A DNA stretch of 64,000 nucleotides from Billgrantia sulfidoxydans (GTDB lineage Bacteria; Pseudomonadota; Gammaproteobacteria; Pseudomonadales; Halomonadaceae). The notes beneath the pieces are model-generated. The model was not told where the DNA came from and ran no database searches. It saw nothing but the letters and a program-made list of their open reading frames with translations. A program made the translations under genes and the position numbers. Location of the stretch: assembly GCF_017868775.1 (NCBI RefSeq), contig NZ_CP053381.1:3162001-3226000 (forward strand). The letters run 5' to 3'. Numbering within the stretch: the first letter of the stretch is position 1; every line of letters starts with the position of its first letter. Shown piece after piece: positions 34,483 through 54,466 of the stretch.

Positions 34483-34559
34483 GCCCCCATAGCTCAGCTG
34501 GATAGAGCGTCCCCCTCCTAAGGGGAAGGTCCCAGGTTCGAATCCTGGTGGGGGCGCCA
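34483..34559 (+). tRNA. tRNA-Arg (anticodon CCU)
   Basis: The cloverleaf is complete: acceptor GCCCCCA pairs with TGGGGGC, the D arm is GCTC/GAGC, and the anticodon stem TCCCC/GGGGA encloses loop CTCCTAA with anticodon CCT. The T arm is CCAGG/CCTGG with loop TTCGAAT. CCA is encoded. It reads AGG codons. tRNA 3' ends of this type are common integration sites, and an integrase remnant lies directly downstream. Confidence 0.97.
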
Positions 34560-35484: not shown

Positions 35485-38400
35485 TTAAGCCACATAACAA
35501 TCATTCGTTTGGCCTGCCACCACCTGCATCAGGCTATCCAGGTAGTTGGAATCCGACATGAACAATACGTGCTTGGCACGCAGTTCATCCGAAGTCATCC
35601 CCCAGTGGCTCACAATCCACTCCCGTGTAGTGCTGGAAGGCGCCAGGATGACGCTTTCCAGCTCGACATGCTCACTTTTCAGGCGCCGTTCCACATCCTT
35701 GATGCGCTCCCCAAACTCGATCTTCTCGTCCTTCGGCCCGGTATGGCGGAGCCCATGAGGGTCAACGAAAACGATGCGCTGCCTGTCGTCCTGCACATGC
35801 CAGAGGATGAAGTCGGGGTAGAACCCACCCGCCTCGAAGAAGCCAATGCCCTGCTTGACCAGGTTGCGCAGCAGGTATAGCTGTTCGCCACGTTCCGCTA
35901 TTGCCTGCTGGTTTCGCTCCAGCCACTTTTTCAGATCCTCGACGAAGCGGAACTCACTGTCGTTCAGGGCAACGGGTTCGACGCGGATACGGCTGTCCTT
36001 ACCCAGGTGCAGCAGCGGGTTGTAGAGATGAGCACCGATTTGCACGGCGCTGATGCCATTGGACTTGGACGACCGATACATACCCTGGCGCTGCTTCTCG
36101 ATGGCCTCCTTCATCTGCTTGATGTCGTCGATCAACGCTGATTCACTGCCGTCGACGATTAGCTGATACTCCTTGGTATCCGGCAGGTTGCCTCGGGCAT
36201 CCTCGAGCGCGACCAGCTCCATGCGCGGCTCCAGATAGGCTCGGCGGTGGTAGTTGAAGACCCGGTCCATCAGCAGCGATAGGAGCTCCAGCGCCATGCT
36301 CTGGTAGCGCTGGAAGTTGTCGGCATGCAGCTTCCACTGGTCCTCGGGGACCAGCAGCCTGTACCACACCCGGCTCTTCAGCAGCGCCGGCAATCGGCCG
36401 GTATCGATGAGCAGGTTGGCATAGCTGCGGGATCGCCTGTAACGCTCCAGGTCTCGCTCAAGGGCGGCCATGTCCAGGAACAGCAGGCGCTCGTCATCGA
36501 AGTAGCGCTCGTGCTGCTTGGCCTGGCCTGGCTTGGCCATTACGTCCTTCACGCCCGAGGCCTGAAGGCTTTCGACCCGAGGGTAGCGGTCGAGCTCTAT
36601 CTTGCGCTCCTTGAGCACGATATCCGGCGTCAGGCCCAGCTCATGACGGAAACCGCTACCGACGGTAGCCACAGGGTGTCCGAAGCGCACCAAGGGGCCG
36701 TCGCGGTAAAAGCTGTAGGCCTGCTTGGTGTCCTGCCGGACCTTAGGACGCAGCATCTTCAACGACTTGCCAACGTCCTCCATCACGTTCAGCTTGAGCG
36801 TATGGATCTCGGGTTGGTCGTTGCCCGGCAGGTCTTCATCCTTCAGGAAGTCACGGAAGGTCGCCATGAAGTCGGCACCGACGCCGAAGACGTTGAGTGT
36901 CTCGAGCAAATAGAGGTGCTTGGGAGCCAGCACCGGATCGAGCCGGCTGGAGCGCATCAGGCTCATGTCTCGGCCTTTCAAGCGTACACCGCGACCGAAC
37001 AGCTGGATGATCTGCGAGCCCTCCTTCTTGCCGGTGTTCATCAGGCCCATGCTAGAGACACGCCAGCAGTTCCAGCCCTCGATGAACTTCTTGGAGCCGA
37101 TCAGCAGGTTAACCGGCGAGCTATCGCGAGTAACCTCGGAGAAAATGGGATTGGCCAGTTCCGACTTGCGGACTTGCAGATGCTGGATTTTGTAATCCTC
37201 AAGGTGCTCGGCCAGCCCCAGAGCATCACCCACGTTGATCAGGCCGAAGGGCTTCTCCGCCTCCCCCACCTTGAGCAGTAGCTCGCCGGAGTCACCGGTG
37301 ATTCGGTCGACGTTCAGCGTACCGCCGCCTGGGGCATGGAAGGTATGGGTAAGGATGTCGCGGTAGAGCTCTTCGACGGTCGGTCCTAGGGCCTTGAGCC
37401 AGGGAAAGCTACCCGAGAAGATCTCGTTGCCTTGCTTGTCGATCAGCCCGGTAGTTTCTGCGTCACCTTCAAAGACGGCGCTGAGCGCCCGGCGCGCTTC
37501 ATCCTTCTCCCCAAGGAACCAGGCCAGAAAGCCCAAGACCTGAGCGATATCGGAAGCACGCTCCTTGTAGTTCTTGGCAGTCTCCTTGCTGCCGTCGTCC
37601 TTGACCACGCTGGCCCCGACGAACACCCATAGCGGCGCGGCCAGGTTCCACTGGGTCAGCTGGCCGTGTTCTTCCTGGTAGTAGCGCTGCTGCTGGTAGA
37701 AAGCCAGCAGTGCCGCCGTGAGGTAGGTGTAGCGCTGCTGTGTCTCCTTCTCCGGCAGGTTGAAGATTCGGTAGTCCTTGCCGTAGCCATCTTCGTAGAA
37801 GTAGCGGTAACCATAATCGAACAGGATGCTCTTGGCGTAGGTCTCCTCCACCGCAGCATCCTTGGCGGCCACCACGGCCTCCTTGAAGGTGGCCGAGTAC
37901 TCGAAGGTAAAGCCACGCCCGGCCAGCTTGTTGCGATGCGACAGCCAGCCTTTCTCTTCGCTCGCCGACCCCAGCCCGCGGTGCCCTTCATCGACCAGCA
38001 GCAGGTTGCCATCGCCGAAGCTGTCCACCGCCATGGTCTTCTTGCCCTGCTCGATGCCGAGCTTGGTGATTTCGGTCACGGCAACACGGCTCAGCGCTTT
38101 CCGCTCGCCGCTGAACAGGTCACCACCGTCCTGGCTCAGGCGCTCCGCCTCCAGGCTGGATTCACGGCACTCCAGCAGGTGCTGCTCACTGAGGCGCTCA
38201 TTGGGCGTAATCAGAATGATCTGACCATAGTCGGCGATACGGTGATGCTTGCGAGCGTAATGCCGGAACTGACGCACGTTGGTGTGCATCAGCAGCGTCT
38301 TGCCCGAGCCCGTGGCATTTTGCAAGCACAGCTTGTTGAGGTCATCGTCCTCATAGGGACCGATGCCCGTCTGGTAGCCCTGCCCCTGCCAGTACCTATT

Positions 38401-38856
38401 GAACCGCTCGACCTGGCGGTTGAGGCTGGCCTTGAGCGCCTCACGATCGCGGAAGTATTCATGGAGGTAGATCTCGACGAACAGCAGGGTCAGCCACTGG
38501 AAGTATTTCCAATCGACCTCGGTCTCCCTCTGCTGATTGAGGGCATCGGTGTGCTCAACGATGTTGGCGTCGAAGCGCTTCAGATCCTCCTCACCGTACT
38601 TCCAGGTGGGCTGATAGCTGCCCAGCAAGGCGTGGAGGTAGTGGTGGTGGCGATCGCCGGTCAGCCCGGGATCACTCCCCTTGAGCGTCTTGCTGAGCAG
38701 GGTAATCGGACGTACCCGGCTGCCGCCGTCCCGGTACTGCTCCAACGGGTCGATACCGAAGCGCGTCAGCACCCACTGGTTGAGCACCAGCTTCTTGAGG
38801 AAGTCGGTCTTGGCACTAAGTTGCTTGATCTTGGTCTGGCGTGGCCTCCCTGCCAT
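35485..38856 (-). CDS. type III restriction Res-like helicase with C-terminal nuclease-like region
   Basis: 1123 residues. It is an SF2 helicase: Walker A NATGSGKTLLM at 180-190, Walker B LLLVDEGHRGL near 289, motif III YSATF near 321, and motif VI QLFGRGVRLKG near 618. The end (about residues 1010-1040) carries YPDFILW then IVFVDPHGL. This matches the PD-(D/E)xK nuclease of Res-like proteins except that the expected Lys of the DxK pair is His, so cleavage activity is uncertain. It is longer than classical type III Res (~970). Its ATG shares one base with the stop of the 64-aa gene, making it the last gene of the mod-kinase-small-res operon. Confidence 0.85.
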   Translation of the reverse strand: MAGRPRQTKIKQLSAKTDFLKKLVLNQWVLTRFGIDPLEQYRDGGSRVRPITLLSKTLKGSDPGLTGDRHHHYLHALLGSYQPTWKYGEEDLKRFDANIVEHTDALNQQRETEVDWKYFQWLTLLFVEIYLHEYFRDREALKASLNRQVERFNRYWQGQGYQTGIGPYEDDDLNKLCLQNATGSGKTLLMHTNVRQFRHYARKHHRIADYGQIILITPNERLSEQHLLECRESSLEAERLSQDGGDLFSGERKALSRVAVTEITKLGIEQGKKTMAVDSFGDGNLLLVDEGHRGLGSASEEKGWLSHRNKLAGRGFTFEYSATFKEAVVAAKDAAVEETYAKSILFDYGYRYFYEDGYGKDYRIFNLPEKETQQRYTYLTAALLAFYQQQRYYQEEHGQLTQWNLAAPLWVFVGASVVKDDGSKETAKNYKERASDIAQVLGFLAWFLGEKDEARRALSAVFEGDAETTGLIDKQGNEIFSGSFPWLKALGPTVEELYRDILTHTFHAPGGGTLNVDRITGDSGELLLKVGEAEKPFGLINVGDALGLAEHLEDYKIQHLQVRKSELANPIFSEVTRDSSPVNLLIGSKKFIEGWNCWRVSSMGLMNTGKKEGSQIIQLFGRGVRLKGRDMSLMRSSRLDPVLAPKHLYLLETLNVFGVGADFMATFRDFLKDEDLPGNDQPEIHTLKLNVMEDVGKSLKMLRPKVRQDTKQAYSFYRDGPLVRFGHPVATVGSGFRHELGLTPDIVLKERKIELDRYPRVESLQASGVKDVMAKPGQAKQHERYFDDERLLFLDMAALERDLERYRRSRSYANLLIDTGRLPALLKSRVWYRLLVPEDQWKLHADNFQRYQSMALELLSLLMDRVFNYHRRAYLEPRMELVALEDARGNLPDTKEYQLIVDGSESALIDDIKQMKEAIEKQRQGMYRSSKSNGISAVQIGAHLYNPLLHLGKDSRIRVEPVALNDSEFRFVEDLKKWLERNQQAIAERGEQLYLLRNLVKQGIGFFEAGGFYPDFILWHVQDDRQRIVFVDPHGLRHTGPKDEKIEFGERIKDVERRLKSEHVELESVILAPSSTTREWIVSHWGMTSDELRAKHVLFMSDSNYLDSLMQVVAGQTNDCYVA

Positions 38857-39050
38857 CAGTGCGACTCCCGGTCCTGCTCATTCTGCTCGCCCACACGCTT
38901 CGTAGGCGCATCTTCGCCCACCAGCACGGGCTTGCCGTCTTGCCAGATCACGGCGTACTGGCCGAGGCGACGTTTACGCTCCAGGGTGTCGGCGACTGCG
39001 GTACGGAGGCTATCCAGCATCTCCTGAGTATCCGGTGCCAGCTGAGTCAT
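38856..39050 (-). CDS. small acidic/basic protein coupled to zeta-like kinase (possible antitoxin or adaptor)
   Basis: 64 residues: [20 protein letters not shown], then [20 protein letters not shown], ending in a charged tail. The gene overlaps the kinase stop (ATGA) and the res start (TGATG). Small proteins with the [17 protein letters not shown] pattern recur beside zeta-like kinases in my memory of other genomes, which suggests an antitoxin role. This is inference; no structure or assay is known to me. Confidence 0.7.
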
Positions 39051-39637
39051 GGCCGTGCCTCCTTGACGAGTAGGTTGTAGTGGCGATCATCGAGAATATG
39101 GCGCTCGTCCCCGGTCTGTTCAAAGACCGGCTCCGGGGTGCCGCCGGCATTCATGAAGCAGCGCGCACGGGAAACGGAGGGCGCGTAGAGCGTCAGCAGG
39201 TTGTGTAGGCTGCGTGGGAAGCGGCGCTGAATGTCCTTCAGTGGGATATCGTGTCCACCATGAGATACTCGCTCTGCCACACGCAGACGTGACATCTCCG
39301 CCGAGGGGAGTGCCAGGTAGACCAGCTCGACCCGCCAGCCTGTTGCCAGCAGCCGCTTCACCAGGCTCAAGTAGCCTCGCCCCGAGAGTGTCGTCTCGAA
39401 GGCGAAATCCTCACCCTCCTCGATCGCGTCTTCGATCTCGCGTAGAAAAATCCGACTGGCGGTGAGAAGCTCCCGCTCCGGCGCCAGGGGAGAGAGACCA
39501 GCGGCGATCAGGTCGGCGTTGATGAACCGCGCACATTTGGCCACCTGGGGCAGGTAGTGAAGCGCAAACGTCGTTTTGCCAGCCCCATTAGGGCCGGCAA
39601 CAATCCAGCAGGTAGGAGCGCTGGCTTCAGAGTTCAT
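39047..39637 (-). CDS. zeta-toxin-like P-loop kinase
   Basis: 196 residues from the ATG that overlaps the methyltransferase 3' end by 11 bases. Walker A is [17 protein letters not shown] near residue 12. [15 protein letters not shown], then [19 protein letters not shown], match the zeta-toxin/AAA kinase family, in which the Asp and Arg act on UDP-N-acetylglucosamine. Zeta toxins phosphorylate that cell-wall precursor and are restrained by an epsilon antitoxin. No epsilon-like gene is seen; the coupled 64-aa protein is the best candidate partner. The interlocked genes imply a shared role with the methyltransferase and helicase. Confidence 0.78.
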
Positions 39638-42600
39638 CGTCACATCCCTCCCACATGCGGGCATGGAAGGTCTCTTCCAGGCTGTGTACGCGGCTACGCG
39701 CACTGCCGGTCAGGTTCAAGCCGTGCGGGCCGTTGATGTAGATAGCATCGAACTCACTGTCGGTGGTGCCGATCTTGTATTTTTCCAGCAGCGCTTCCAG
39801 CACCGCGGCATCCTTCTCAGGGTCGTCGGTCAGCTTACGCCACACCACCAGCACCTTGGCCAGGTCCTCGTCGCTGCCCGGGATACGGCGCACGTGCCCT
39901 TCCACCTGGCGAATCCAGTAGGCACCGTCTTCGTTCTCTCGCAGGCCTTCTGCCTTGAGACGCGTGTTCTGGTCCTCCGGCAGCTCGGGGTCTTCCTCGC
40001 GAGTGAAGCGGGCGATATAGGTACGCGGCTTGTCGAGGTGAGTGACATGCAGACCGATCAGCCAATTGAACGTTTCGACCAGGTCGACGGCGGTTTCGCG
40101 GGTCTCGTCGCTGCCGGGCTGCTTGACCTTCAGCGTGTAGCCTTCGGGGTCACGGAACCACTCGGTATTGAGCAGGCTGGCTGAGCCGCGGGTCTCCACA
40201 TCGAGCAGATACTTGAGGGTATAGTCACGGCGCAGCTCGGCATTCTGCTCCATCAGCGCATCGCGCTGGGGGTTATCGTCCAGCTCGAGATTGTTGAGAG
40301 TATCGTCGTAGCTCTCAAGGCGGAGGTATTTGAAGCATTGAGCCACGCCATTCAACTCCCCTTTGTCATCCTCTAACGGGGCCCCACCTTTCCAATCCTG
40401 TGAATATGCCGACTTCACAAGCCTAGGCTTAATTACATCCGAAAAATACTCACCCATCTCCACCAAGAAATATTTCTTCCCACCCTCCCCCAATCTCTTG
40501 CTATTTATTACAGATACACCCGTGGTGCCAGAGCCGGAAAAATAATCTATCACCCAACCATTTTTTCCAAAATACGAGAGCAGCCTGCCTATATCCTTCA
40601 CATCTTTCGGGTTGTCAAAAACCCGATCCCCCATGATCGCCTCAAATGCATTGTTAGTATTTTGCGCATAGCTCCAAAAGACACTCCCCATCACTTGGCG
40701 CGAGTTCTCAAAAAGATAATACACTACACCTGGCACGGTTTTCTCATCACGGCCAAAAGATATTTCGCCTCTATCATACTTATCCCAAAAGGTTTCGGGC
40801 TTAGAATACCTCCACCCACTCTTTGGGATTTTTACGGGCAGCTTTGTTTGAGGGTGCAACACCTCATACCTTGGCCCCTTACCACCTGGCCAGTTTATAT
40901 TCCCATCATCCCTATACGGCCCCCTCAAAGACATCTTGGGATATTTTGACAAAATACTTTTTGTTTCCGAGTCTTTAACCGATGACACGAAAAACTTCCA
41001 TTCTTCATGGATTTTTCCCAAGTCATTCCCAACCCTTTTTTTTATTCTCTCAAACTCGGCCTTCGCCTCATCCACCCCCGCCTTAAGCTCTCTGAGTTTC
41101 CTGCCTGACTTATCCAAACCTTCTTTATCTAAGCAATAAACCGCCATATATTCATGGCCAACCGAAAAATACTTGGCATCGTTTTTTCTGTTTCTATCCC
41201 AAACCAACCTAGCAAGGCGGTTGCTCGAGCCAAAAACCTCATCCGCCAAGAGACCAAAATTCTGAATCTCTACATCATCAAAGCTTACGACAACAAAAGC
41301 ATCTTTAGTCATCAAGTGCAAGCTAGATGAAATCCTGTCATAAAGCATCGCGAGCCAGCTTGAATCTTTATAGCTATCCTTGTAAACAAACCCGTCATCG
41401 CCAGTATTGTAAGGCGGGTCAATATAGCAAACCGGCATGGACTTCTCGAATGTTCTTTCAGCCATCCTTATTGCTTGAAAATTATCGGACTGAACAAGTA
41501 TGCCATCCAAGCTGGAGAAAGAGACACCAGAGCGAGACAGTATGTCTATTTTGAGTTTTTCCGAAAGAAGACCAGTATCTACCATCAGAAACTTGAACTT
41601 ACTACTCGACAAAATTCCTGCGGGGCCTTCACCATCTAAAACCTCATCCAGCTCATTCAGATCAACAGAGCAGTACTTTTCCCACTGCCTCCTTTGCTCC
41701 TCATTGCTTGAAATATCGACAACAAGATCCTCGCATCCCTTTAAAATATCTAAAGAAATGCAATAATCAGAACTTAAAACAAATTTTTTCTTAAGCCACA
41801 GCTTCCGCTGAAAATTCTCCAGCTGTGACAGAAATATGATAATCTGCTTGGCGATCTTACGTAGTACCTGAATCTTCTTCAGCTGCTGCTCAACGATCAG
41901 CACATCAGCATTGTCGATATCGTCAAGGCGCAGGATCTCGTTCTTGATATAGAAATCTAGCTCGCGCGATAGGAATCCACCCAGGTCCTTGTGGATAAAA
42001 TAGTCCATGGTATTTCTGGCTGTGTACTGCTGCAGGTACTTGCCCAGCAGAGTGCGCTCTTTCTGCTTGTCCGTCGGCGCCCGGGTAGCAAGCCCTTCTC
42101 GGAAGGCAGCTACGCCATCGGTGAGGCGCAGCGCCGCCATGATGAACTCTTCAGCCTCCTCGAGGCGCTTTTTCTGCCAGGTGCCGCTCTGGCCCGTCTT
42201 TTCCGGGTCGGGCCGGTACTCGAACTGCAGCACGAGGTCGGCGCCCTCCAGGCGCACCGGCTCGTCGTGGTGGATGATGAAGAAGCGCTCGGTGCTCTCC
42301 TTCACATCGTTGTGCTCACCCTCGGTAGCATCGACCACACGGCAGTGCACCTTGAGCGCGGCGTCCACTGAATCGAAGCCCAGGCCACCCTGTGCGGCGG
42401 AACCATGTAGCTTCTTCAGGGCCTCGTTGAGGTTGAAGGTGAAGTTGGCCAGCGTCTCGGAGGACTTGACGTAGTACTGGTCCTTGTTGGCCCAGTGAAG
42501 GTAGACCTCTCGCCCATCGTAGGGCACCGCATAGGGGGCGGCCCGGCTGTCGTTCTCGGCGACGTGATGGCGACGACTCATGAAGTCGCCTTTGTCGTAG

Positions 42601-42977
42601 TAGCGGGAGAAGAAGCGGTAGAGGTGGTCGTAGATGTCCGCCGAGGCGTTTTGCTCGCGCTTGGCAACATCGTAGGCGGCACGTGCCTGCTTCACCGCCG
42701 GGGCGCTATCCGGGTCCGGAGCCCCCAGCTCCTCGGCCTGACGCCGCTTCTCCTCGATCTCCTGGCGCATCGTTGCCAGCTGCTCTTCGCCCTGCTCGGC
42801 AAACGCCTCCTCGATCGCCTGGGCCAGGTCTTCCCGGATGAACCGGGAGAGTTGGTCGCTCTTGGCATGCATGATGCGGTAGAGCCCGAAGTCCAACTCC
42901 GGCTTGTCGAGCTGGAACAGCTCGTGCAAGAGGTCGATGAAACGTTGCCTTCGGTCGTCCGTGGTTGCTACAGCCAT
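39627..42977 (-). CDS. site-specific DNA methyltransferase, type III Mod-like (beta class)
   Basis: 1116 residues. The catalytic motif DPPYNTG is at 520-526 and the SAM-binding YFSGSGTTG near 815. This IV-before-I order marks beta-class amino-methyltransferases such as type III Mod enzymes, making N6-methyladenine or N4-methylcytosine. It is about 450 residues longer than classical Mod, with a long helical N-terminus. DNA coding for about residues 375-870 is distinctly AT-rich, with different codon use from both ends, so the core has probably been replaced by recombination. First gene of the overlapping operon with kinase, 64-aa protein and Res. No good Shine-Dalgarno before the ATG. Confidence 0.88.
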
Positions 42978-43115
42978 TGGTCAGTACTCATCAGCTCGCG
43001 AAACCGACATGAATCACTATGAAATTCAAGCAGTTAAAGAATCACGACCAGGCGACGAGGCCTGGCCAGTGGAGATTCGTATGGTGCTGATGATACTCGG
43101 TGGAGGTGCCAGGCT

Positions 43116-44030
43116 CTAGGAGAGGCGGCTCCGCCACACGGGGCACTGCAGCCAGCCGTCGGGGAAGCCCATGCTTCCAGGGTCGATGGCATAGCGCTCG
43201 ATCAGAGCCGCCAGCCTCTCTCGAAAGTGGTGATGGCGGCTGATCACATCGAGCACATAGGCAAGCATCGTTACAGTGTTGTATAGCTTACGCTGCGCCG
43301 TTTCGTCTCTGAACTTGACCAGGCTGTCCCCCAGTGGCTCCGGGTTGCGTGGCAATGTGAACTTCACCGTCAGCTCGCGGTTCCACACCCGGGCGTGGTG
43401 GGCACAGTGGTTGCGGACTACGTTCAGGTGGTGGCAGAAGGAAGTCAAGATACGCTCATCCAAGCCGTAGGGCCTAGCGATGGCGTTGCGGTCATCACTA
43501 TGAGCGAGGTGCTTGAGCCACTTCGAGAGCTGGCCAAAGCTCATGATCTCTACCACCGCCCATACAGGCGGCAGGGGCTCGTCGTACCGAGAGCGGAAGT
43601 GCTCGATGAACACCTCGCGATTGCTTTGCACATCCTTGAGAAGGCCGGCCAACCCGCTCCGATAGTTCCAGCGGCTGGAGTCCGTAAACAGCGAGGTCTG
43701 CATCAGCGCATGCGGTCCATGACGGTGCCCCATCTGATAGGCAAAGTGGCCGCGCAACGACACCTCGACCCTTTCAATGGCGTCAAGCAGCAACAAGCGC
43801 AGCTCACGATCGAACAGGTAGTGGTCCAGCACCGTCTCGAACTGGGTCCCAGGGCGGAAGGTATGACTATCGTGGTCCGCCTCATAGGGAAGCCAGTAGG
43901 CGGCGAGCCGATAGTAGTTCAGGTGGGCCAGATAGTGTTCGGCTCGGGCTTCGTCCCGAACCTGCATCCCCCGCTCGCGAAGTCGCGCAAGCTGGTCGGC
44001 ATAGCTAAGGGCTGGTTTTTCGTATCTCAT
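43116..44030 (-). CDS. Abi_2 family protein (HEPN-type abortive infection)
   Basis: 304 residues, starting at MRYEKPALSYADQLARL, the usual family beginning; a slightly earlier ATG adds nine residues that overlap the terminator. The Abi_2 family includes AbiD/AbiF of Lactococcus. LNYYRLAAYWLP near residue 40 and VVRNHCAHHARVWNRE near 210 are family hallmarks. The RNHCAH string fits the Rx4H motif of HEPN ribonucleases. Such proteins kill or arrest the cell during phage infection. It lies between the SNF2 and methyltransferase genes, in the same direction. No Shine-Dalgarno was found. Confidence 0.85.
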   Translation of the reverse strand: MRYEKPALSYADQLARLRERGMQVRDEARAEHYLAHLNYYRLAAYWLPYEADHDSHTFRPGTQFETVLDHYLFDRELRLLLLDAIERVEVSLRGHFAYQMGHRHGPHALMQTSLFTDSSRWNYRSGLAGLLKDVQSNREVFIEHFRSRYDEPLPPVWAVVEIMSFGQLSKWLKHLAHSDDRNAIARPYGLDERILTSFCHHLNVVRNHCAHHARVWNRELTVKFTLPRNPEPLGDSLVKFRDETAQRKLYNTVTMLAYVLDVISRHHHFRERLAALIERYAIDPGSMGFPDGWLQCPVWRSRLS

Positions 44031-44040
44031 TGATCGCACA

Positions 44041-44090
44041 AAAAAGTAACCCCCCATGGTGCGCTGATCTGACGGGAAGCGTGGGGGGTG
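44041..44090 (-). terminator. intrinsic terminator after SNF2 gene
   Basis: On the minus strand ACCCCCCA pairs with TGGGGGGT around a 25-base loop and is followed by TACTTTTTTG. It lies ~90 bases beyond the SNF2 stop and just before the Abi start, so Abi may need its own promoter or read-through. Confidence 0.7.
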
Positions 44091-44178
44091 TTGTTACATA
44101 CAAGTTTAGGCAGTTGACCCGCCAAGGTCAACCGGCCAAGACGACCTTCGAGGCCAAGTCCTTGGGCCCGCATGCCCT

Positions 44179-47058
44179 TCACGTCAGCTCCCAACGGATC
44201 AGGAATAGCCGATGAGCCTGGCTCTTGCGGTGCATCTGGCGTTCCAGGGCATCGATGAGCGCGTCGCGCTTCTCCTCGATATCGTCTTGCACGTCGAAGA
44301 TCGCCTGACGGTCGCGGCGCTGCTGACGCTCAAGCGTCTTGAGCGCTTCCTGCGCGGCCTTCTGCTCCTCAAGGGTCTCGGCGGTGCGTGAGCGGCGCTT
44401 GGCATCCTTGATCTTGGCCCGCGTGTCCTCCAGCTGCGCTTCACTGGAGGCGACCTGATCATCGGCCCAGGCCTCCAGTTTGTCGCGCTCGCGCTGGAAG
44501 TAGCTGTGATTCTCCTCAAGTACACGGCTAAGGGTGGCATCCAGCTGCCGCTTGGCCAGCGCAGGGAGCTCCTGAGGGGGTTCGGGTGCGCTATCGGGCC
44601 CTACCTCAGCCGTCACATTGAAGAGCCGCTCACAGGCCTCCTGGTCAAGGTGTGTGCCATCGTCGGCCAGGGCGGTGAAGACGAGGTGCTCCTCATGCTG
44701 GAAGCTGTCCAGCTCGAGCAGATTCAGCTCCAGCCATCCACTGCGGGTGGTGAGCTGTTCGAGTACCGAGATTCGCAGGGGGTGACCGGACAGCTTGAAG
44801 CGCAGGGTAGCGACCGGCGTCTCCCGGCGGCGGCCGCTATCGAGCACATGCTCGCCCAGCGGATGTGTCAGCCGATAGACGTGGGCATGCTCGGGCGGCT
44901 TTATGCCCTTTCCCTTGCGAATCAGCCAGTAGTCACCGGCGGGCACGCTCTCTACCGGAGAGGCCTCCAGGTGAAAGGTCAGGCTGCTATCTCTGAACTT
45001 GGCCTGCTCCGCCAGGCAGTGGCGGGTCAACTTCCAGAACAGCTTGCCGGTGCGGTCGAGCTGAGCCTCGGCCTTGTCACGCTGAACGCGCAGTAGGTCG
45101 TGGATCTGTTCGTCGAAATGCTCGAGCAGCTTGCTCTCCGTCTCCTTCATGCGGGCATCGATATCGGCCTCCAACTGCTCACGCAGCTCGGCGAAAGCCG
45201 CCTCGATGGCATCCGGCGTGCGGCAGGTAGCGTAGATATCGGCAATGCGCTTCTCCACATCCACACCCGACTCCAGCCGGCCGAGAATTTCATCGGAAGC
45301 ACCGAACAGACCATCGAACAGCTGGAACTTCTCGCTCAGCAGTTCGAGCACGCGCTTGTCGGCCTCGTTGCGCTGGTTGAGGAAATTAACCACCACCACA
45401 TCGAATTGCTGGCCGTAGCGGTGACAGCGACCTATGCGCTGCTCCACACGCTGAGGGTTCCAGGGCAGGTCGTAGTTCACCACCAGGTTGCAGAACTGAA
45501 GGTTGACGCCTTCGGCGGCCGCCTCGGTAGCCACCAGGATCTGCGCCTTGTCTCGGAAGTGGTCGATGATGGCAGTACGGCGGTCAATGGCGGGACTGCC
45601 CGTCACTCGGTCGCTACCAGCATGCTCCGCAAGCCAGCGTTGGTAGATGCCTGTCACCCCTGGGCTGTTGTTGGTGCCGCTGAAGGTCACAACCTGATCG
45701 GCAAAGCCGTTCCGCTCCAGAAACCGGCTTAGGTACTCCAGCGTGCGCCGGGATTCGGTGAACACCACCGCCTTGCGCGGTGCCCCCATCTCATCCATGC
45801 GAGCGAAGCCTGTTTCCAGCGCGGTAACCAGCGCATAGGACTTGGCATCCTCGTGAATCCCCCGAGCCAGGTTCAGATACTGCTCGATTTCGGCGATCTC
45901 ACCCTGCAAGCGAGTGGGATTGACCTCTTGTTCCAGATACCGGGCATCGGCCTCCTCCACGTCTTCGGCTTCCGCAGCTTCCAAAAGCTCCTCATCGAGC
46001 GACTCATCGGCCAGCAGCCGCTCCAGCCAGTCCTGTTCGACCTGATGACGGTTCTGCAACGACTCGAGTCGCTCCTTGAGGGTCTCCAGCGTCTGGATAA
46101 TGGCCGTGGTAGAGGACGCCAGCAGCTTGCGTATGACCAATGTCACGAGGTGGCGTTGCCGCGTGGGCACGCCATAGCTGTCTTCCCGCGCCAGATAGCC
46201 GGAGACTAGATGGTAGAGACGCTGCTCATCCTGGGACGGGGTGAAGGGGATCGTCAGCGCCTTGCGCTCTGTGTACTGCACATACTCCAGCACCTGGCGA
46301 CGCAGGGTGCGTTTGGCAAACTCCTCCAGCCGGCGGCGCAATCCCTCAATGTCATTACCACCACGCATGAACTGGCGGCGAAAGCTGATGGCGTCGCCAA
46401 ACAACTGGTCATCGATCACCGTGGAGAGGCCATAGAGCTCAAGCAGTGAATTCTGCAATGGCGTGGCGGTGAGCAGCAGCTTCCGGCTGCCGGCGAAGGC
46501 ACGCTTGATGGCCTGCCCGGTGCGATGACTCTCGCGGTGGGCGTTACGCAGCTTGTGGGCCTCGTCAATTACCACCAGGTCCCAGGGGATGGTGCGCAGC
46601 TGAGGTTCCAGCTTGGCCGCGAAGTGGTAGGACATCACGCTGATGACGTCCTGATCCAACGGATCGTAGATCCCCTGATCACGCTGCTGCTTGTAGGTGC
46701 GGGCATCCAGCACCTGAGTGGGCAAGTGGAACTTCTCGGCCAGCTCGGTCGCCCATTGCTTGCGCAGGGCGGCCGGTGCAATCACCAGCAAGCGACGCCG
46801 ACGCTCCGCCCAGTACTGGCAAATCACCAGCGCCGCTTCGATGGTCTTACCCAGCCCCACCTCATCAGCGAGTAGTACCCCCTTAGTCAGCGGGTTCTGC
46901 AGGGCGAAAAGGGCCGCATCGATCTGATGCGGGTTGAGATCGACCGAGGCATCGAATAGCGAAGCAGCCAGTCGGTCAACGTCTCCCCCCCTGCGCTGCC
47001 GAGTGAGCTCATAGGCGAAGTACTTGGCGTGGTAGTCGGTGATGCGCTCAGTGGTCAT
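44179..47058 (-). CDS. SNF2/RapA-like helicase
   Basis: 959 residues from MTTERITDYHAKYF (an ATG 21 bases upstream is also possible). SWI2/SNF2 motifs are LADEVGLGKTIEAAL near residue 67, VVIDEAHKLRN near 165, LLTATPLQNS, then VATEAAAEGVNLQF and RVEQRIGRCHRYGQ for motifs V-VI. The final ~150 residues are a long coiled coil. Proteins of this kind translocate on DNA and appear as DrmD in DISARM, and beside Mod/Res pairs. No DrmA, DrmB (DUF1998) or DrmC is present here. Lies upstream of abi and mod on the same strand. Confidence 0.85.
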   Translation of the reverse strand: MTTERITDYHAKYFAYELTRQRRGGDVDRLAASLFDASVDLNPHQIDAALFALQNPLTKGVLLADEVGLGKTIEAALVICQYWAERRRRLLVIAPAALRKQWATELAEKFHLPTQVLDARTYKQQRDQGIYDPLDQDVISVMSYHFAAKLEPQLRTIPWDLVVIDEAHKLRNAHRESHRTGQAIKRAFAGSRKLLLTATPLQNSLLELYGLSTVIDDQLFGDAISFRRQFMRGGNDIEGLRRRLEEFAKRTLRRQVLEYVQYTERKALTIPFTPSQDEQRLYHLVSGYLAREDSYGVPTRQRHLVTLVIRKLLASSTTAIIQTLETLKERLESLQNRHQVEQDWLERLLADESLDEELLEAAEAEDVEEADARYLEQEVNPTRLQGEIAEIEQYLNLARGIHEDAKSYALVTALETGFARMDEMGAPRKAVVFTESRRTLEYLSRFLERNGFADQVVTFSGTNNSPGVTGIYQRWLAEHAGSDRVTGSPAIDRRTAIIDHFRDKAQILVATEAAAEGVNLQFCNLVVNYDLPWNPQRVEQRIGRCHRYGQQFDVVVVNFLNQRNEADKRVLELLSEKFQLFDGLFGASDEILGRLESGVDVEKRIADIYATCRTPDAIEAAFAELREQLEADIDARMKETESKLLEHFDEQIHDLLRVQRDKAEAQLDRTGKLFWKLTRHCLAEQAKFRDSSLTFHLEASPVESVPAGDYWLIRKGKGIKPPEHAHVYRLTHPLGEHVLDSGRRRETPVATLRFKLSGHPLRISVLEQLTTRSGWLELNLLELDSFQHEEHLVFTALADDGTHLDQEACERLFNVTAEVGPDSAPEPPQELPALAKRQLDATLSRVLEENHSYFQRERDKLEAWADDQVASSEAQLEDTRAKIKDAKRRSRTAETLEEQKAAQEALKTLERQQRRDRQAIFDVQDDIEEKRDALIDALERQMHRKSQAHRLFLIRWELT

Positions 47059-47138
47059 CCCTGCACCCTGCTCTAGCATGAGGTAACGTCACACTTTGTA
47101 ACGTACACGAAGCGATATCAAGGCACCTTTGGCAGGGG

Positions 47139-48368
47139 CTACACTAGCTTGAACGGCTCGATGTCGCGGAAGATGCCGGTCTTGGTCATGTCGCGGCGCA
47201 GAGCAAAAGCCTCCAGAGCAGCCACCGGGTCCACCTGGTCCAGCCTGCCGAAGTGAATCCTGCCCCACTGTTCTCGGTTGACCTTCACGCTGAACAGATA
47301 CTGGTCGCGCTCGCCGCCGGTGGCAGAATCAGTGACCTGGCGATAGCCGGAGACCCTCGCCTCCTGCACGGCGGGCAAGCGGGCGAACACCGCACCCAGC
47401 ACGCGAAAGGCGATGCCGTGGACGTGGTCCCGATAAAGCTCACGCTGCCGGGTATCGCTGAGCCGGCGGGACGTGGGCCTGATCTGCTTGGCGGGCATGG
47501 TCCAGTAGCGGTCTGGCATCTCGTCCTCACATGGGAGGTCGATATCCACGGCAATGGTGCTGGCGTCGCTGCCCAGGTCGAAGTCGATGGCGGTTTCACG
47601 CGGCCAGTCGATTTCCTCCAGGCGTTCGCGCAGCGTCTGCTCCATGGCGTTCGGGTCGTGCAGCACGCCTTCCCCTTCGCGAAGGTGGCGTGCAAACTCG
47701 GCCTCGTCGTGCTTCGCCTTGCGCCATTCCCAGTCGCGGTAGGCCTGATCAAAGGCCGCTTGTCGGCGCCGGTTCTCCTCCACGACGTGCCGCCTGGCGG
47801 GCGGCCACAGCCGGTGCCACCAGGCAAGCTGACGCAGCACCAGTGGAGCCGGCGGTGCCTCGGTGAAGTCTCGCGTGACGTAGCCGGTGATATCCGGATG
47901 GGGTGTCTCCTCGTGGAGCCGCCCCAGGCGGTCCAGGTCGGCATTGAGACGCTCGCAGTGCTGTGCCAGCTGCTCGCGCAGAGACTCCCCGGCATGCCGC
48001 CGCAGCACCCGCGCCTCGTCGTCGCTCATGGGCGTGCCGTCCCCGTGGGCAAAGTGGATGCCGCCATCACCGTCGATATCCAGCCGGATGGGCAGCGACT
48101 CGCCCTGAGCTAGCAGCGCCTCCAGGCTCGCAGCGGGGCTGGAGCGGCCGGCGCCGCTGCTCCCATTCCCAGCCGAACGGCCCCGGGCGTTGAGCTTCTG
48201 GCGATAGGCGAGCCCGGTGCCGGGAATGCCCGCGTGGCCGTAAACGCCCCTCGGCCCCACGCTGAGGCTTGCGCCCCGCGGGCCCACCGAAAGCCCGAGG
48301 CCCCGCTTGCTCAAGTTGAGGCGGATACCCGGTGCGAGGGTGATACGGCGCTGGAAGCGAAATGCCAT
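47139..48368 (-). CDS. DUF4236-domain protein with long unknown C-terminus
   Basis: 409 residues, start supported by GGAG before ATG. The first ~55 residues ([20 protein letters not shown], then [19 protein letters not shown]) are a DUF4236 domain, a small beta domain of unknown role. The remaining ~350 residues include a Gly/Ser linker, a [20 protein letters not shown] segment and a charged helical region not recognised. It lies 80 bases upstream of SNF2 in the same direction and may be co-transcribed with the defence genes. Confidence 0.75.
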
Positions 48369-48450
48369 GGTTCTCCTTAGGTATTGCGCTAGTACAAACT
48401 GCTGATAGCCTATCAGCTTCTCGGACTGGGCATGCAGGACATCAACGGCG

Positions 48451-49542
48451 ATGGAAACAATCGAACAGCTGCACAGCGACCCACGCCCTTTGGTCAGCCT
48501 GGCCAACGTAAGCGCAGTGACGGGCGAGTCTCTTGGAGAGTTGCTACTTCGACTGGCTGGCAACGACATACCTCTATTTATGGAGCGGCCAGAGGAAGCG
48601 CGCATTTTTTGTGTTACTCAATCGCTGCCTATGCCCCACCGTGAAGCAACATACCCAGAAGCCATTTTAAGCCCATCTAGAGGCTTGAACCCTCCTGGAT
48701 TCATGACTCCAAAACGAGGTGAGACTCACATAGATGCCTCTCACTTCAACTATCTTGTATTAACGAGCGCTGATTACGCCCCCCTGACCGAAGGGGGCTC
48801 AAGACTATCAGTCAAGCTGTTCAGACAAACTGCCTACATTGACAAGGGAGGTGATGAACCGATTACAGTCAACGCGAGCGATTATTATAGAGAACATTTA
48901 CCTAAAGCCAGCCCACTGGAAAAAATGAAGGCACAATTTTCGTGTTGCTATCAAAACAAAGAATGGCCTTCTACATTTAAATTTACTAGCGTGACTATAA
49001 ATTCAGAAGAGCTTTTAGTATCGAGAACCTCGCTTCTGGATCGCGTCTTAAGCTATAGTAAACAAAGCACCTGTCTCCTTCCTGAGCTTCAATGTCATCT
49101 TCAGCCATGGAAAAGTGACTTACTTCTTGCGCTCAACAAGGCGGCTTTTAAAGTTCACTCAAACGACAATGAAAATAAAATATTTAGCAAGGAGCAAGTA
49201 ATGGCAGCCATCAACGAACAAATTAATGGTAGCAGACCATCAGATACCACCCTCAGCAGGCTAGCCACCCTGCTCCGCCACGATCGTCAACCAGCCAACT
49301 ACAGAAAGGCGGTCAACAGCAATTCCACAAACAAATATCCACCACATTTCACACCGCAACTCATTTACCTTAATGAAAAAAGCGAAAAATACTACACCGA
49401 CTACCAAGGTTCGAAAAATCAAACGCTGCCAAGTGCCAAAGCTGTCCAACTTGAGTTACAGGAGGACGGAGTTATTAGCAAAGACACCGCCATCAGAGTA
49501 GCAAGCGCCCTGATCCCAAGACTAAGACACTCGACTCTCTAA
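48451..49542 (+). CDS. hypothetical protein (AT-rich island orphan)
   Basis: 363 residues; no family recognised. The N-terminal third ([20 protein letters not shown], then [14 protein letters not shown]) could be a small DNA-binding or regulatory domain. A long central region follows, and the C-terminus has [20 protein letters not shown] then a helical end ([19 protein letters not shown]). Base composition is AT-rich and unlike the neighbouring DUF4236 gene, from which it diverges. Its end overlaps the convergent yfjJ-like gene by 21 bases. Codon structure and length support a real gene. Confidence 0.65.
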
Positions 49543-50598
49543 ACTCTGAAGCTTTCTTGGTCGCCCCCTTCTTCTTTCCGGTTTAGCATTTTTACAAGCT
49601 GAGCGAAACCACGTTCGCTCCCCTGGCGCCTCAGCTGCCATGACGTAGTCAGTCTTAACCATATAGTCAACTACCAGACCCACAAAGGCTGAATACTTTG
49701 CATCATCGTAATAGTCGAGTGTGCCTATGCCTAAATACCGATAATGGCTCTTGTGTCGATTACAATTATAGTATCGACCTTCGCCCTCTGACACGATTTG
49801 GTTTCTCCAGTGATCCCCCAACATCTTGGCAAGGGTAATGTCCTCGCGGTGCTTGGACCCGTCACATAGAGCGATGACATGGAAGTGAAAGCCACTCAGT
49901 AGCCCATATTCCAGCTTCGCCATGTAACCCACCACTCCCCGTATAGGCACGCCACGCAACAAATCTTGACGAAACCGTTCCCAGTCTTCTTTTACGTCCC
50001 CCAGCGCCGTCCTGAAGTCATCGAGGTCTACGTACTTCCCTTTTCGATAGCTGAGATCCAAGCGCAGCACCTCTAGCCTGGCATACTTGGCCCTTAAGCC
50101 GTTGACAAGTTTCTGAGCACCTTTCATGCGAGCCTGCTTAGCTCTCTCAAGCCTGCGCATGTACTGCCTCATACCCGCCCCACGGCACTCCTTTCGGATC
50201 ATAGCAACAGCGGCATTTAATCTATCCACCTGCTCATAAGGGTCATAGTTATAAAGATTATCTATCCTAAAGTCCTCCGCTGCGTCATGATAGACTCTCA
50301 CATAGGGATGACTATTCATGAGCTGGACACAAGAAAACTGGTTATGTCGGCTGTTTTCAATCAGTCGCTTCAGCATCTTCCCTGTCAGACTCCAGGACCT
50401 AATACATGGAGCGCGCCCCTCTTTCTCAAACACATCAAAAAGTTCTTCATCCGTTCTAAACAATCGCTCGACTACTGCTCTTACCTCCTTAAAGTAGGTT
50501 AGCACCTCCTCATCGAGGTTGCTCTCTGCCTCGTCCCTGACATGGTCTAAATCAAATTCGCAGCCAGGCCACTGCACCTCTGTCTCGTCGTAACACAT
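49522..50598 (-). CDS. YagK/YfjJ-type protein (inovirus Gp2 family, HUH-like)
   Basis: 358 residues. The core LLSGFHFHVIALCDGSKHRE has a His-x-His motif, followed by LGDHWRNQIVSEGEGRYYNCN and YLGIGTLDYYDDAKYSAFVG. This matches the YagK_YfjJ C-terminal domain found in CP4-57-like elements and inovirus replication proteins; the HxH is reminiscent of HUH relaxase/Rep enzymes. It probably nicks DNA for rolling-circle-type replication of the element. RBS GAGAGG precedes the ATG. A hairpin sits directly before it. Confidence 0.8.
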   Translation of the reverse strand: MCYDETEVQWPGCEFDLDHVRDEAESNLDEEVLTYFKEVRAVVERLFRTDEELFDVFEKEGRAPCIRSWSLTGKMLKRLIENSRHNQFSCVQLMNSHPYVRVYHDAAEDFRIDNLYNYDPYEQVDRLNAAVAMIRKECRGAGMRQYMRRLERAKQARMKGAQKLVNGLRAKYARLEVLRLDLSYRKGKYVDLDDFRTALGDVKEDWERFRQDLLRGVPIRGVVGYMAKLEYGLLSGFHFHVIALCDGSKHREDITLAKMLGDHWRNQIVSEGEGRYYNCNRHKSHYRYLGIGTLDYYDDAKYSAFVGLVVDYMVKTDYVMAAEAPGERTWFRSACKNAKPERRRGRPRKLQSLESRVS

Positions 50599-50621
50599 TG
50601 CCTCTCATGCCTCTCATTAAT

Positions 50622-50648
50622 GGTAGCCACATCTTATTGGTGGCTACC
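50622..50648. other. 9-bp hairpin between yfjI and yfjJ
   Basis: GGTAGCCAC pairs with GTGGCTACC around a nine-base loop, 24 bases before the yfjJ-like ATG. The rest of the 178-base gap is AT-rich and without a gene. It may be a leader hairpin or a nick/origin structure for the HUH-like protein. Confidence 0.5.
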
Positions 50649-50776
50649 AACCCTGACAGTAAAAAAACCTAATAACATATACTCCAAAATAAAAACCTTA
50701 AAATAGAGCCCAATATTCCGCCTGTTTACAGGCACGAATTCCACATTCTAAACAACCAGAGAGAAATAAGTTAATG

Positions 50777-52303
50777 TCAATACCTCCTCCCTGAAAAAGA
50801 ACCCCCTACCGACATCGCGGCCACATAATCAAAAGTAAGCCAAGGGAAGAAATCCAAACATACCGTATTCCCCGAGAAGTATTGAACAACGCTTTGTTTT
50901 TGGACAAGCCGATCAATAGCCGCATTTAGCCTTTTCGAATTTCGAAGCGATTCTGGCACTACAACTCTTCTAACAGTGTTCTTTTTGATGTAGCGAATCC
51001 CCATGCTGCGTTTTTTGTCAATCCACTCCTGCAGGAGCACCTCGTCTCTTTCTTCTTGAGAGGCCTGATTGAAAATCTCTCGATGCTGTTTGACAAAATA
51101 CATAGCCAAGTGCAAAGAGTGATCTATCACAGCTGAGTTGATTTTTTCTTGAGGGCCTTGCTCAAATACGCTTAACAAGCATGCGAGCCGCAAGATTTTT
51201 TCTCCAAGCTTCGAGCCATAGCCATCATGACCCTCGAATATCCCCCCTGGATTCATCTCATGCTCAATAGCATTGTTGATCATTACCATTTTCTCCTCTG
51301 CATCTTCATCTAGTTGCACAACTATTCTGGCCTTTTCTCCCGAGAGGATTCCAGGAAGCATTCTGACATAAGCATCTAGCTTCTCATAATAATCAGAATA
51401 AATGGTGCTTCTGTTGACACTTTCCTCCTTTGCTTTATATCGCCTTCCAATAGTCGACTCAGGCCGTGCCATAAAAGTCCTAGCAAAGAAGCCAGATGCT
51501 TCCATTACCTCACCATATTTACTGAAGTACTCTTCGAAGACTCCTGGCTGAACATCTATGCTGACTGTAAGCCTGCCATTTACCACAACGCTAGACTCAG
51601 ATGTCTTCCTTGTAATCTTAACTGTCTCCCCACTATACAAACATAGCACGGCCGGACTTTTTATTGCTGAGCTTTTAAGAACCACACCCCCTTCACCTGA
51701 GGCAATAGCTGCATACTTGCATCCTTTACTCATGCGATCAACAAAAGCTTCTGCTGAAGAGTCAGTATGGATAATTTGCATATCACTGGGTGGCTGGGGC
51801 TTTTCCTCATGCAATGCCTTTAACTGAGCTTCAGCATCTTTAGTACACTCCTCCTTACCAAGAAGCCTCTTAATCTTTTTTTTCAAAAAACGCTTTTTCT
51901 CCTCAAAAATCTCTAGCTCTAGAGAGTAATCACGCTGGCGCTTTTCACTTTGCTCGTCAAGCTCCTTCTGAAATTCATAAATCGGCTTGTAGGCCGCACT
52001 TTCTACAGCAGTTTTCCTCTCTCCACTTTTGGCAAGCGTAATGAAATAGCATGATATTGGAACCACTTCTCCACGTGGCGTCTGAACATCAACGAGATGT
52101 TGCAGGCCTATAGAGAGCGCAGAAAGTAGCTTGGCAATAATAAGTCCTCTAGGTGCTTGAATCTCTTGCTGCAGCTCATCCGCCACCTTTTCTATTAATG
52201 TGTTACCATGAGTTTTCCGAACTTCTTTTTGAAATCCATAGTCTGCAAGGATAATACGACTATTTTGTATAGCATACCTGATATCATCATACCCAGACAT
52301 CAT
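50777..52303 (-). CDS. YfjI family protein (DUF3987)
   Basis: 508 residues. The region ITLAKSGERKTAVESAAYKPI near residue 92 corresponds to the P-loop of DUF3987 proteins. A coiled stretch rich in Lys/Glu (EEKKRFLKKKIKRLL) follows, and then IHTDSSAEAFVDRM and the conserved SGEGGVVL. YfjI-type proteins occur in CP4-57 and other integrative elements and resemble helicase/primase-associated proteins; function is unproven. It overlaps alpA by 4 bases (ATGA), so the two are one operon. Base composition is AT-rich. Confidence 0.85.
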   Translation of the reverse strand: MMSGYDDIRYAIQNSRIILADYGFQKEVRKTHGNTLIEKVADELQQEIQAPRGLIIAKLLSALSIGLQHLVDVQTPRGEVVPISCYFITLAKSGERKTAVESAAYKPIYEFQKELDEQSEKRQRDYSLELEIFEEKKRFLKKKIKRLLGKEECTKDAEAQLKALHEEKPQPPSDMQIIHTDSSAEAFVDRMSKGCKYAAIASGEGGVVLKSSAIKSPAVLCLYSGETVKITRKTSESSVVVNGRLTVSIDVQPGVFEEYFSKYGEVMEASGFFARTFMARPESTIGRRYKAKEESVNRSTIYSDYYEKLDAYVRMLPGILSGEKARIVVQLDEDAEEKMVMINNAIEHEMNPGGIFEGHDGYGSKLGEKILRLACLLSVFEQGPQEKINSAVIDHSLHLAMYFVKQHREIFNQASQEERDEVLLQEWIDKKRSMGIRYIKKNTVRRVVVPESLRNSKRLNAAIDRLVQKQSVVQYFSGNTVCLDFFPWLTFDYVAAMSVGGSFSGRRY

Positions 52304-52545
52304 CGCCCCCTCACACTCTCCTCTCGTTTTTTTATACAGGACTCAATCCACTCCTCGACTTCTGACTCCACCCAGGCAACTGATGATGCTCCAATACTGA
52401 CTTGGCGGGGAAATTCAGGATCATAGTGAGGGCACTTAGCATCTAGCTTATTGTAAATGCTTGACCGAGAAAGCCCTGTCCTTTCCATCACTTGCTTCAG
52501 CTTCAGAAGCACCCTTGGTTGATGACTACCAATGTAATTGCTCAT
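52300..52545 (-). CDS. alpA: AlpA family phage transcriptional regulator
   Basis: 81 residues starting MSNYIGSHQ. LLKLKQVMERTGLSRSSIYNKL is the AlpA helix-turn-helix, and PRQVSIGASSVAWVESEVEEWI the conserved remainder. In E. coli CP4-57, AlpA activates excision of the element through the integrase intA. Here the integrase is a remnant 18 kb away, so AlpA may control only yfjI and yfjJ. An in-frame upstream ATG adds 25 unlikely residues. Confidence 0.88.
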   Translation of the reverse strand: MSNYIGSHQPRVLLKLKQVMERTGLSRSSIYNKLDAKCPHYDPEFPRQVSIGASSVAWVESEVEEWIESCIKKREESVRGR

Positions 52546-52624
52546 TGAAAAAATCCTTGTTGACCGACAGGGCAAGGATGGCAAAGGAAGGTGATCGGCG
52601 AAATTGTTAAGAGCTGTCAAAAGG

Positions 52625-54156: not shown

Positions 54157-54225
54157 GTCTCACCTGAGATGACGTCCCCCTTGCGGTCCCGTCCACCAGG
54201 TTCTTTTTCCCCTTTCACGGCATAG

Positions 54226-54253
54226 CGCCCGACCCCACCAGGTCGGGCGTTTT
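54226..54253 (+). terminator. intrinsic terminator after DUF932 gene
   Basis: CGCCCGACC pairs with GGTCGGGCG around CCACCA and is followed by TTTT, 70 bases after the stop. Confidence 0.85.
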
Positions 54254-54269
54254 CGATTCTGGAGGTCCC

Positions 54270-54455
54270 ATGCCACTGCCCCTCTCACTGGAGGCCTGTC
54301 GGGCGCTGACGCAGCTGACCCGCCAACTGCTTGGTGCTGGCCAAAAGCAAACCCAGACCCACGTGATGGCTCATGGCCAGGTGTTCCGCGTGGTCGTGTC
54401 GTTGGAGCCGGTCCCTGCCGATCAGCTCCAGGATGTCTTCAAGCACTATCAGTAA
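54270..54455 (+). CDS. small hypothetical protein
   Basis: 61 residues, start after GGAGG. It has a helical N-terminus (EACRALTQLTRQLLGAGQ) and a short beta-like HVMAHGQVFRVVVSLE. No family recognised. It lies twelve bases before the ERF gene, so it is likely translated from the same mRNA. Confidence 0.6.
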   Translation: MPLPLSLEACRALTQLTRQLLGAGQKQTQTHVMAHGQVFRVVVSLEPVPADQLQDVFKHYQ

Positions 54456-54466
54456 AAGGAGGTCAC

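Follow-up and report, generated by a model that had tools for sequence, protein, structure and literature searches.

A SNF2-linked type III restriction-modification (RM) operon, found within the 64,000-nucleotide stretch of DNA analyzed here (the window), probably serves as a chassis whose two gene junctions hold accessory defense cassettes that act as an independent second layer. All six open reading frames of the operon are present on the minus strand, in the order SNF2 helicase, Abi_2 protein, Mod, kinase, 64-aa protein and Res (Table 1). From comparison with related loci, the core looks like a DrmD/RapA-like SNF2 helicase together with the Mod and Res of a type III system, three genes in all, and the SNF2/Mod junction (slot 1) and the Mod/Res junction (slot 2) look like cargo slots that are either empty or filled with interchangeable defense cassettes. 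If this is true, one recognizable chassis flags the sites of interchangeable phage defenses, and reading the slots would reveal new systems.

Table 1. Features of the operon, with positions counted from the first base of the window
Feature	Position	Strand	Remarks
SNF2 helicase, first core gene	44179..47079	-	DrmD/RapA-like; motifs DEVGLGKT, DEAH, QRIGRCHRYGQ
AbiD/Abi_2 HEPN protein, slot 1 cargo (SNF2/Mod junction)	43116..44057	-	RNHCAHH motif (R215, H220)
Abi-bearing segment, absent from L119	43103..44168	.	DNA alignment; 26-27 bp in L119
Mod, second core gene, long type III adenine methyltransferase	39627..42977	-	DPPYN (520-524), FSGSGTTG (813-820)
Mod diverged block, ~residues 400-886, spanning the catalytic and target-recognition part	40319..41778	-	DNA alignment and GC of 0.43-0.50
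Zeta/PezT-fold kinase, 196 aa, probable toxin, slot 2 cargo (Mod/Res junction)	39047..39637	-	
64-aa partner, probable antitoxin, slot 2 cargo	38856..39050	-	
Res, third core gene, type III restriction helicase and predicted nuclease	35485..38856	-	ATGSGKT, DEGH, SAT, QxFGRGVR
Res C-terminal nuclease-like signature PDF...(D/E)P(K/H)G, DPHG in the window	35752..35817	-	Aligned Res sequences

Gene structure and protein families of the operon

The overlaps between Mod and the kinase (11 bases), the kinase and the 64-aa gene (4 bases) and the 64-aa gene and Res (1 base) are real, as originally predicted, and identical overlaps are found in three relatives, L119, L120 and L123. The Abi gene is flanked by gaps of 121 and 138 bp and thus has no translational coupling to its neighbors. 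The SNF2 gene had been placed correctly except for its start: the predicted start at 47058 is the second methionine of a frame that extends to 47079, and either start is equally possible. For the kinase, the mechanical reading frame begins at 39703, and the ATG at 39637 is favored because homologues are ~196 aa long. The kinase is present in a single copy in the 4.49-Mb single-contig genome, and the named matches among the best homologues of the kinase and the small protein are mostly from Halomonas and relatives, which suggests a host within the Halomonadaceae.

Mod matches the PADLOC family MTase_III at 599 bits, the Pfam family N6_N4_Mtase, and the EcoP15I Mod at 6.7e-41. Its sequence contains the motifs of an adenine methylase, and the block that has diverged among relatives suggests a target-recognition region in its center. 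Res matches REase_III (556 bits, PADLOC) and ResIII and contains the SF2 helicase motifs; searched against PDB sequences it gave no match at a limit of 0.01. The nuclease-like signature of Res is present in 16 of 16 aligned sequences, with K in 8 and H in 8; the window and its closest relatives account for five of the 8 H rows. Because the window has DPHG in place of the DPKG found in half of the aligned relatives, Res may or may not be an active nuclease. The Abi protein (Abi_2, 185 bits; AbiD, 244 bits) has both the Abi_2 domain and the HEPN R-x4-H motif, in a form, RNxCAHH, that is common to the window, L128 and L177. The SNF2 protein contains SNF2-rel_dom and Helicase_C domains, and its best PADLOC match is DrmD. 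The prediction of a defense operon in which type III RM accounts for Mod and Res only is supported.

The SNF2-Mod-Res core recurs in other genomes and on plasmids

Searching the genomes of the taxonomic family with Mod yielded matches in 50 of 201, most of them weak and limited to the shared methylase domain. SNF2 is located upstream of Mod in 9 of the 10 long-Mod loci (L002-L011, the window's own included); in the tenth, L006, the contig begins too close for SNF2 to be judged. Among the 369 genomes of the class sample, 9 have a Mod match at 1e-40, own genome included. SNF2 (alignment A8) was found in 22/369 class genomes and 19/398 phylum genomes, with the own genome included in both counts. 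We fetched 32 further SNF2 regions (class list, 13; phylum list, 19), omitting four class genomes fetched earlier and four with SNF2 at a contig edge. The order SNF2-Mod-Res on one strand is complete in 24 of the 32, by gene calls from a simple longest-ORF script and with Res in L182, L191 and L197 identified through weak similarity (50-61 bits). Contig ends interrupt seven loci (L177, L184, L188, L190, L199, L200, L202), and L207 yielded no Mod in the stretch from SNF2 to Res. SNF2 is therefore a regular member of the operon, as had been proposed. Mod-Res pairs with no adjacent SNF2 also exist (L129, L136, L137, L138); SNF2 is thus strongly linked to Mod and Res, and Mod less strongly to SNF2.

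Core loci include both long (~1100 aa) and short (~550 aa) Mod proteins. The window SNF2 is 53-96% identical to the ten other rows of alignment A8 and 38-56% identical to the SNF2 proteins of further loci. Mean column identity is 69% for 11 SNF2 sequences versus 44% for 12 Mod sequences, in row sets that differ. Among 72,556 plasmid records, 47 have an SNF2 match at 1e-100, and SNF2-Mod-Res is present in 3 of the 3 of these that were opened.

Co-occurrence of all six families had been put forward as a check of the original prediction, and it holds for part of the set: SNF2-Mod-Res recurs across many genomes, beyond what chance would give, and the six-family set is rare, with no second case in the loci searched. 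An Abi relative occurs only in L128 and L177 among these loci, neither of which shows the kinase pair, although L177 ends at a contig edge too early for this to be judged; L119, L120 and L123 contain the other five genes and no Abi gene.

Both junctions hold varied cargo

The SNF2/Mod junction exceeds 1 kb in 16 of the 24 complete loci and the Mod/Res junction exceeds 600 bp in 8 of 24; part of this cargo was identified. At the Mod/Res junction we found Fic (L127), RhuM (L131, L182, L193), GmrSD_N with NsnB/NsnC and a 284-aa gene of no family (L132), DUF1016/PDC-S02 (L189, and L203 at 33% similarity) and HEC-01 (L121, and L210 by 36-37% similarity and annotation). GajA/GajB (Gabija) follow Mod at the contig end of L124. 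The SNF2/Mod junction contains AbiD (window, L128), KilA-N with PDDEXK_3 (L131), HTH with HipA (L133), HEC-03 (L135), ietAS (L178), AIPR/AbiU (L180, L198), Dsr2 (L203), GmrSD (L182), Schlafen AlbA_2 (L204), RhuM (L192) and, by similarity, HEC-01 (L064, L184). Scores in bits were 372/201 for GajA/GajB, 481/184 for HEC-01A/B, 207/715 for HEC-03A/B, 343/329 for NsnB/NsnC, 228 for AbiD, 356/1203 for IetA/IetS and 478 for Dsr2. Such genes also occur in SNF2-less relatives: Fic separates Mod from Res in L137 and precedes Mod in L129, and L136 has DUF559 together with AbiJ_NTD4, which passes its cut-off narrowly. Core loci with no cargo are L126, L191, L196, L201, L206 and L211; also cargo-free are L187 and L208 (Mod split into two frames in both) and L130 (Res weakly recognized).

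The 284-aa cargo gene of L132 (7414-8268, minus strand) lies between Mod and GmrSD/NsnBC, and its product has no Pfam or PADLOC match. In L197, the Mod/Res cargo is a 231-aa protein (11460-12155, minus strand) that has no Pfam match and includes the sequence RNALAH, a candidate HEPN site; it is a possible effector.

Cassettes are exchanged at the DNA level

L119 and the window align over 7.6 kb at 87.5% identity, with the SNF2 gene at 88%, and the 1.06 kb containing the Abi gene (window 44168 to 43103) is absent from L119. L120, L121 and L123 lack it as well, the edges of the missing piece differing slightly. The window AbiD is thus an insertion of ~1.06 kb relative to relatives that are ~88% identical.

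In slot 2, the kinase of L121 is replaced by HEC-01A/B from its start codon onward. The final shared base is window 39634, the base after the ATG, and the cargo gene begins at the same ATG as the kinase (position 11510 in L121). The alignment resumes at 39095 with the last 49 bases of the kinase gene, and the 64-aa gene that follows is open and 92% identical to that of the window. In L122, the kinase has a ~200-bp deletion that shifts its frame, and in the short-Mod locus L183 an insert interrupts it, bearing on the opposite strand a 257-aa ORF that is transposase-like by eye; the small gene is open in both loci. Two plasmid loci with cores 63-74% identical differ in the same junction: L210 has a HEC-01-like pair between Mod and Res with a one-base overlap at each junction, and L211 has Mod directly joined to Res by a one-base overlap. 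The base-exact swap in L121 and the plasmid pair with and without cargo make testable the question of whether toxin-antitoxin genes inside restriction operons are a guard, an addiction module or a case of shared expression.

The diverged block of Mod gave no DNA alignment of at least 60 bp to L120-L123, and its flanks are 82-94% identical. L119 aligns to the window along the whole of Mod, including this block. GC content in the middle of Mod (40000-42000) is 0.43-0.50 as compared to ~0.62 on either side. A diverged, low-GC middle between conserved flanks fits a specificity swap.

The kinase has a zeta/PezT fold and occurs in many settings

The kinase matches the Pfam families Zeta_toxin and AAA_33, and its predicted structure (pLDDT 92.7) has as its best PDB fold matches AvrRxo1-ORF1, PezT and zeta. 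It has the zeta/PezT kinase fold with a Walker A motif and a conserved acidic base, which we take to be D42 by analogy, and an alignment of 34 relatives shows no variation in the Walker A, NAD, ETT and RR residues. Because AvrRxo1 acts as an NAD kinase, the substrate of the window kinase could be either NAD or a UDP-sugar. Searched as a profile against PDB sequences, the kinase gave only weak matches to other P-loop proteins. At the limits used, neither PADLOC nor Pfam nor NCBIfam gave a family match for the 64-aa protein, whose model, a long helix with a beta hairpin, is of modest confidence (pLDDT 74, pTM 0.46).

There are at least 8000 relatives of the kinase, and their distribution is patchy (53/398 genomes); 80 of the genome loci studied are the best of at least 109 confirmed. 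Kinase pairs are positioned between Mod and Res in the window, L064, L066, L070, L119, L120, L123, L178 and L181, and broken kinases in L122 and L183. Placing the nine Mod/Res kinases on an 83-row tree takes six label changes, and six are also the number forced by well-supported branches; entry into the Mod/Res junction therefore happened several times, or loss was frequent. The probable type I operons L035, L045, L089 and L105 also contain the kinase pair. In L148, L150 and L152, from the phylum sample, a short type III Mod lies ~300 bp downstream of the kinase; it is 44-47% similar to the L130 Mod, and the kinase position differs from that between Mod and Res.

RM genes were found on the same strand within 2.5 kb of the kinase in 19 of 110 loci by seed similarity, an upper figure in that it includes the window (L144), the seed-supplying loci and L036 and L037, whose seeds are unconfirmed as HsdS, and a lower figure in that the seed set was small and L140-L169 had flanks of 1.5 kb only. 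With this limited seed set no nearby RM gene was detected in the other 91. With self-matches left out, the share of bins filled by RM sequence is 4.3-5.5% up to 4 kb from the kinase and 0.8-1.0% at 4-10 kb; the seeds had been taken from kinase neighborhoods, a choice that favors RM near the kinase.

These distributions bear on the prediction that the six genes form one module, and they do not support it, as AbiD is an insertion missing from close relatives, the kinase is replaced or broken elsewhere, most kinase loci have no detected RM gene, and other cargo occupies the same two slots. A single six-gene system is rejected because cargo comes and goes among relatives. The corresponding mechanism, in which Mod, Res and SNF2 read the methylation state and directly release the kinase and the HEPN protein, is improbable: in its favor are the base-exact 11/4/1 coupling kept in L119, L120 and L123 and the six label changes, by which the Mod/Res placement arose or was lost repeatedly; against it are the AbiD-free close relatives, the replacement (L121), frame-shifting deletion (L122) and transposase-like insert (L183) of the kinase, the 91 kinase loci with no RM gene detected with the seeds used, and the cargo-free chassis (L126, L191, L196, L201, L206, L211).

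The small partner is mostly retained when the kinase is lost

The small partner is found beside an intact kinase in 107 of 108 loci; the profile used was trained on most of the loci in which it was then counted, and outside its training set the figure is 23/24. A kinase was scored as intact when an open frame of at least 130 codons followed the P-loop. L053, L067 and L094, broken by a strict motif rule, have open frames and were counted as intact, and contig ends led to the exclusion of L147 and of L168, in which the start of the kinase is cut off. Nine kinase loci have a stop inside the profile match (L148, L150-L154, L158, L160, L169), of which only L169 fails the 130-codon rule. L164 is the sole intact kinase with no convincing partner. 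Of seven loci whose kinase is dead or replaced, six retain the partner (L049, L121, L122, L167, L169, L183); the seventh, L166, has a broken kinase and no small partner.

A partner that is kept while the kinase dies is the asymmetry that would be expected of a toxin and its antitoxin. Retention of the small gene could instead reflect its coupling to Res. Given the zeta/PezT fold of the kinase, the pair is most likely a toxin-antitoxin pair embedded in an SNF2-linked type III system, and the earlier suggestion of a toxin-type kinase with the 64-aa protein as its probable partner agrees with both the fold and the 107/108 intact loci.

The same asymmetry would suit a selfish addiction module, with the kinase pair punishing loss of the RM operon or of a mobile island and having no role in defense, as would the island-like region in which the operon resides and the occurrence of the chassis on plasmids. 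We consider this unlikely, since most of the slot cargo identified in relatives belongs to anti-phage or toxin families and the kinase pair is present in 0 of the 3 plasmid chassis opened from the 47 matching records. That the kinase instead has a metabolic or repair function, with the small protein as a chaperone or regulator and the embedding incidental, is very unlikely: phosphofructo-2-kinase and polynucleotide kinase domains are likewise similar in fold and the single sequence has no match to PDB sequences at 0.001, but the best fold matches are toxin-antitoxin-type kinases, the distribution is patchy (53/398 genomes), the small partner is constant, breakage is repeated and RM sequence is enriched near the kinase.

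Proposed mechanism

In the chassis model that we favor, Mod would methylate host sites and thereby mark self DNA, and Res, probably aided by the SNF2 motor, would cut unmethylated DNA. The motor may clear DNA or travel along it for Res, a role suggested by its association with Mod and Res, its conservation and the gene order. The AbiD HEPN protein of slot 1 is predicted to be RNase-like and would cleave RNA when triggered; slot 2 would provide a toxic zeta-type kinase and its 64-aa antitoxin. The cassettes share the operon, putatively on a common transcript, and slot 2 also has overlapping frames; they would probably act as an independent second layer. Infection or anti-restriction would halt synthesis of the 64-aa protein, which is presumably labile, and the kinase would then be freed and arrest the cell. 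Alternatively, the kinase may fire when the 64-aa protein is titrated.

A more far-reaching version of this model is possible, and we regard it as doubtful. SNF2-Mod-Res would be a distinct, unnamed three-subunit restriction class in which SNF2 is needed for cutting. The junctions would be specialized docking sites that preserve translational coupling, so that inserted effectors are made in ratio with the restriction enzyme and fire when restriction is blocked, and the zeta-type pair would be a new member of these effectors.

Comparison with known systems

As in EcoP15I-like type III RM, the operon encodes an adenine Mod with DPPY and FxGxG motifs, followed by a Res with a ResIII helicase and a C-terminal PD-(D/E)xK-like site that in the window has H at the lysine position, and PADLOC assigns the two to MTase_III and REase_III. 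It differs from type III RM in the ~1100-aa length of both Mod and Res, in the SNF2 gene before Mod and in the cargo genes at the junctions. DISARM class 1 consists of DrmD with DrmMI, DrmA, DrmB and DrmC. The window resembles it in having an SNF2 protein nearest to DrmD (653 bits in PADLOC, 660 in NCBIfam) beside an adenine methyltransferase. DISARM was rejected: at 659.8 bits the SNF2 protein falls short of the 950 set for DrmD in NCBIfam, the eight proteins scanned include no separate DrmA, DrmB or DrmC, and DrmB (MZB/DUF1998) is not in the operon, the only MZB match of the genome being ~570 kb away (C1:3794301-3794603). MADS was likewise rejected, as the best PADLOC match of the kinase, mad8, reaches just 14.6 bits.

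The kinase fold, catalytic pattern and small partner gene are shared with epsilon-zeta and PezAT. In the known epsilon-zeta/PezAT pairs the antitoxins are upstream and are larger or contain an HTH, whereas the window partner is downstream and is a 64-aa helix with a hairpin, and the kinase is just 196 aa.

Embedding of one defense system in another is an already published theme. PMC12255303 describes DarTG2 within a type I RM operon, the RptR island and guilt-by-embedding, and PMC12629846 describes type I RM with embedded systems, including PrrC. The window is like DarTG2/RptR in having a toxin-antitoxin pair between modification/specificity and restriction genes, and differs in its toxin and in being type III and not type I; SNF2 does not appear in the available text (PMC12255303). 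Hma, defined in PMC8565338 and placed with BREX-related systems in PMC12839542, is likewise a helicase-methyltransferase chassis hosting embedded defenses, and families HEC-01 and HEC-03 (HEC, Hma-embedded candidate, in PMC12988326) are cargo in relatives of the window operon. Hma differs, according to PMC8565338 and PMC12839542, in having an m5C methyltransferase and a DUF499-annotated ATPase, and it was rejected as an assignment because the DUF499 ATPase (HmaC) has no match anywhere in the genome.

In the literature searched we found no name for SNF2-Mod-Res as a unit, which the preprint of Payne et al. 2024 may list as a chassis, and no description of the kinase pair as its cargo; the available text of PMC10853773 contains nothing on this operon.

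Genomic setting

A tRNA-Arg (CCT) gene is located on the 3' side of the operon (34483-34559). Upstream of the operon, 49522-52620 encodes a DUF3987 protein, an AlpA-like regulator and a protein that weakly matches a replication protein. Together, the tRNA and the upstream genes look like a satellite- or integrative-island-like region. No integrase was found among 18 proteins scanned around the operon, and no direct repeats flanking the island were found in 34400-56000 at the settings used. Beside the island, 53188-55261 encodes DUF932 and ERF-type proteins that are phage- or plasmid-like. Upstream of SNF2, 47139-48605 encodes a 488-aa DUF4236 protein whose C-terminus weakly matches a type IV restriction model (2.7e-5). 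The final 21 residues of this protein recur upstream of SNF2 in L121.
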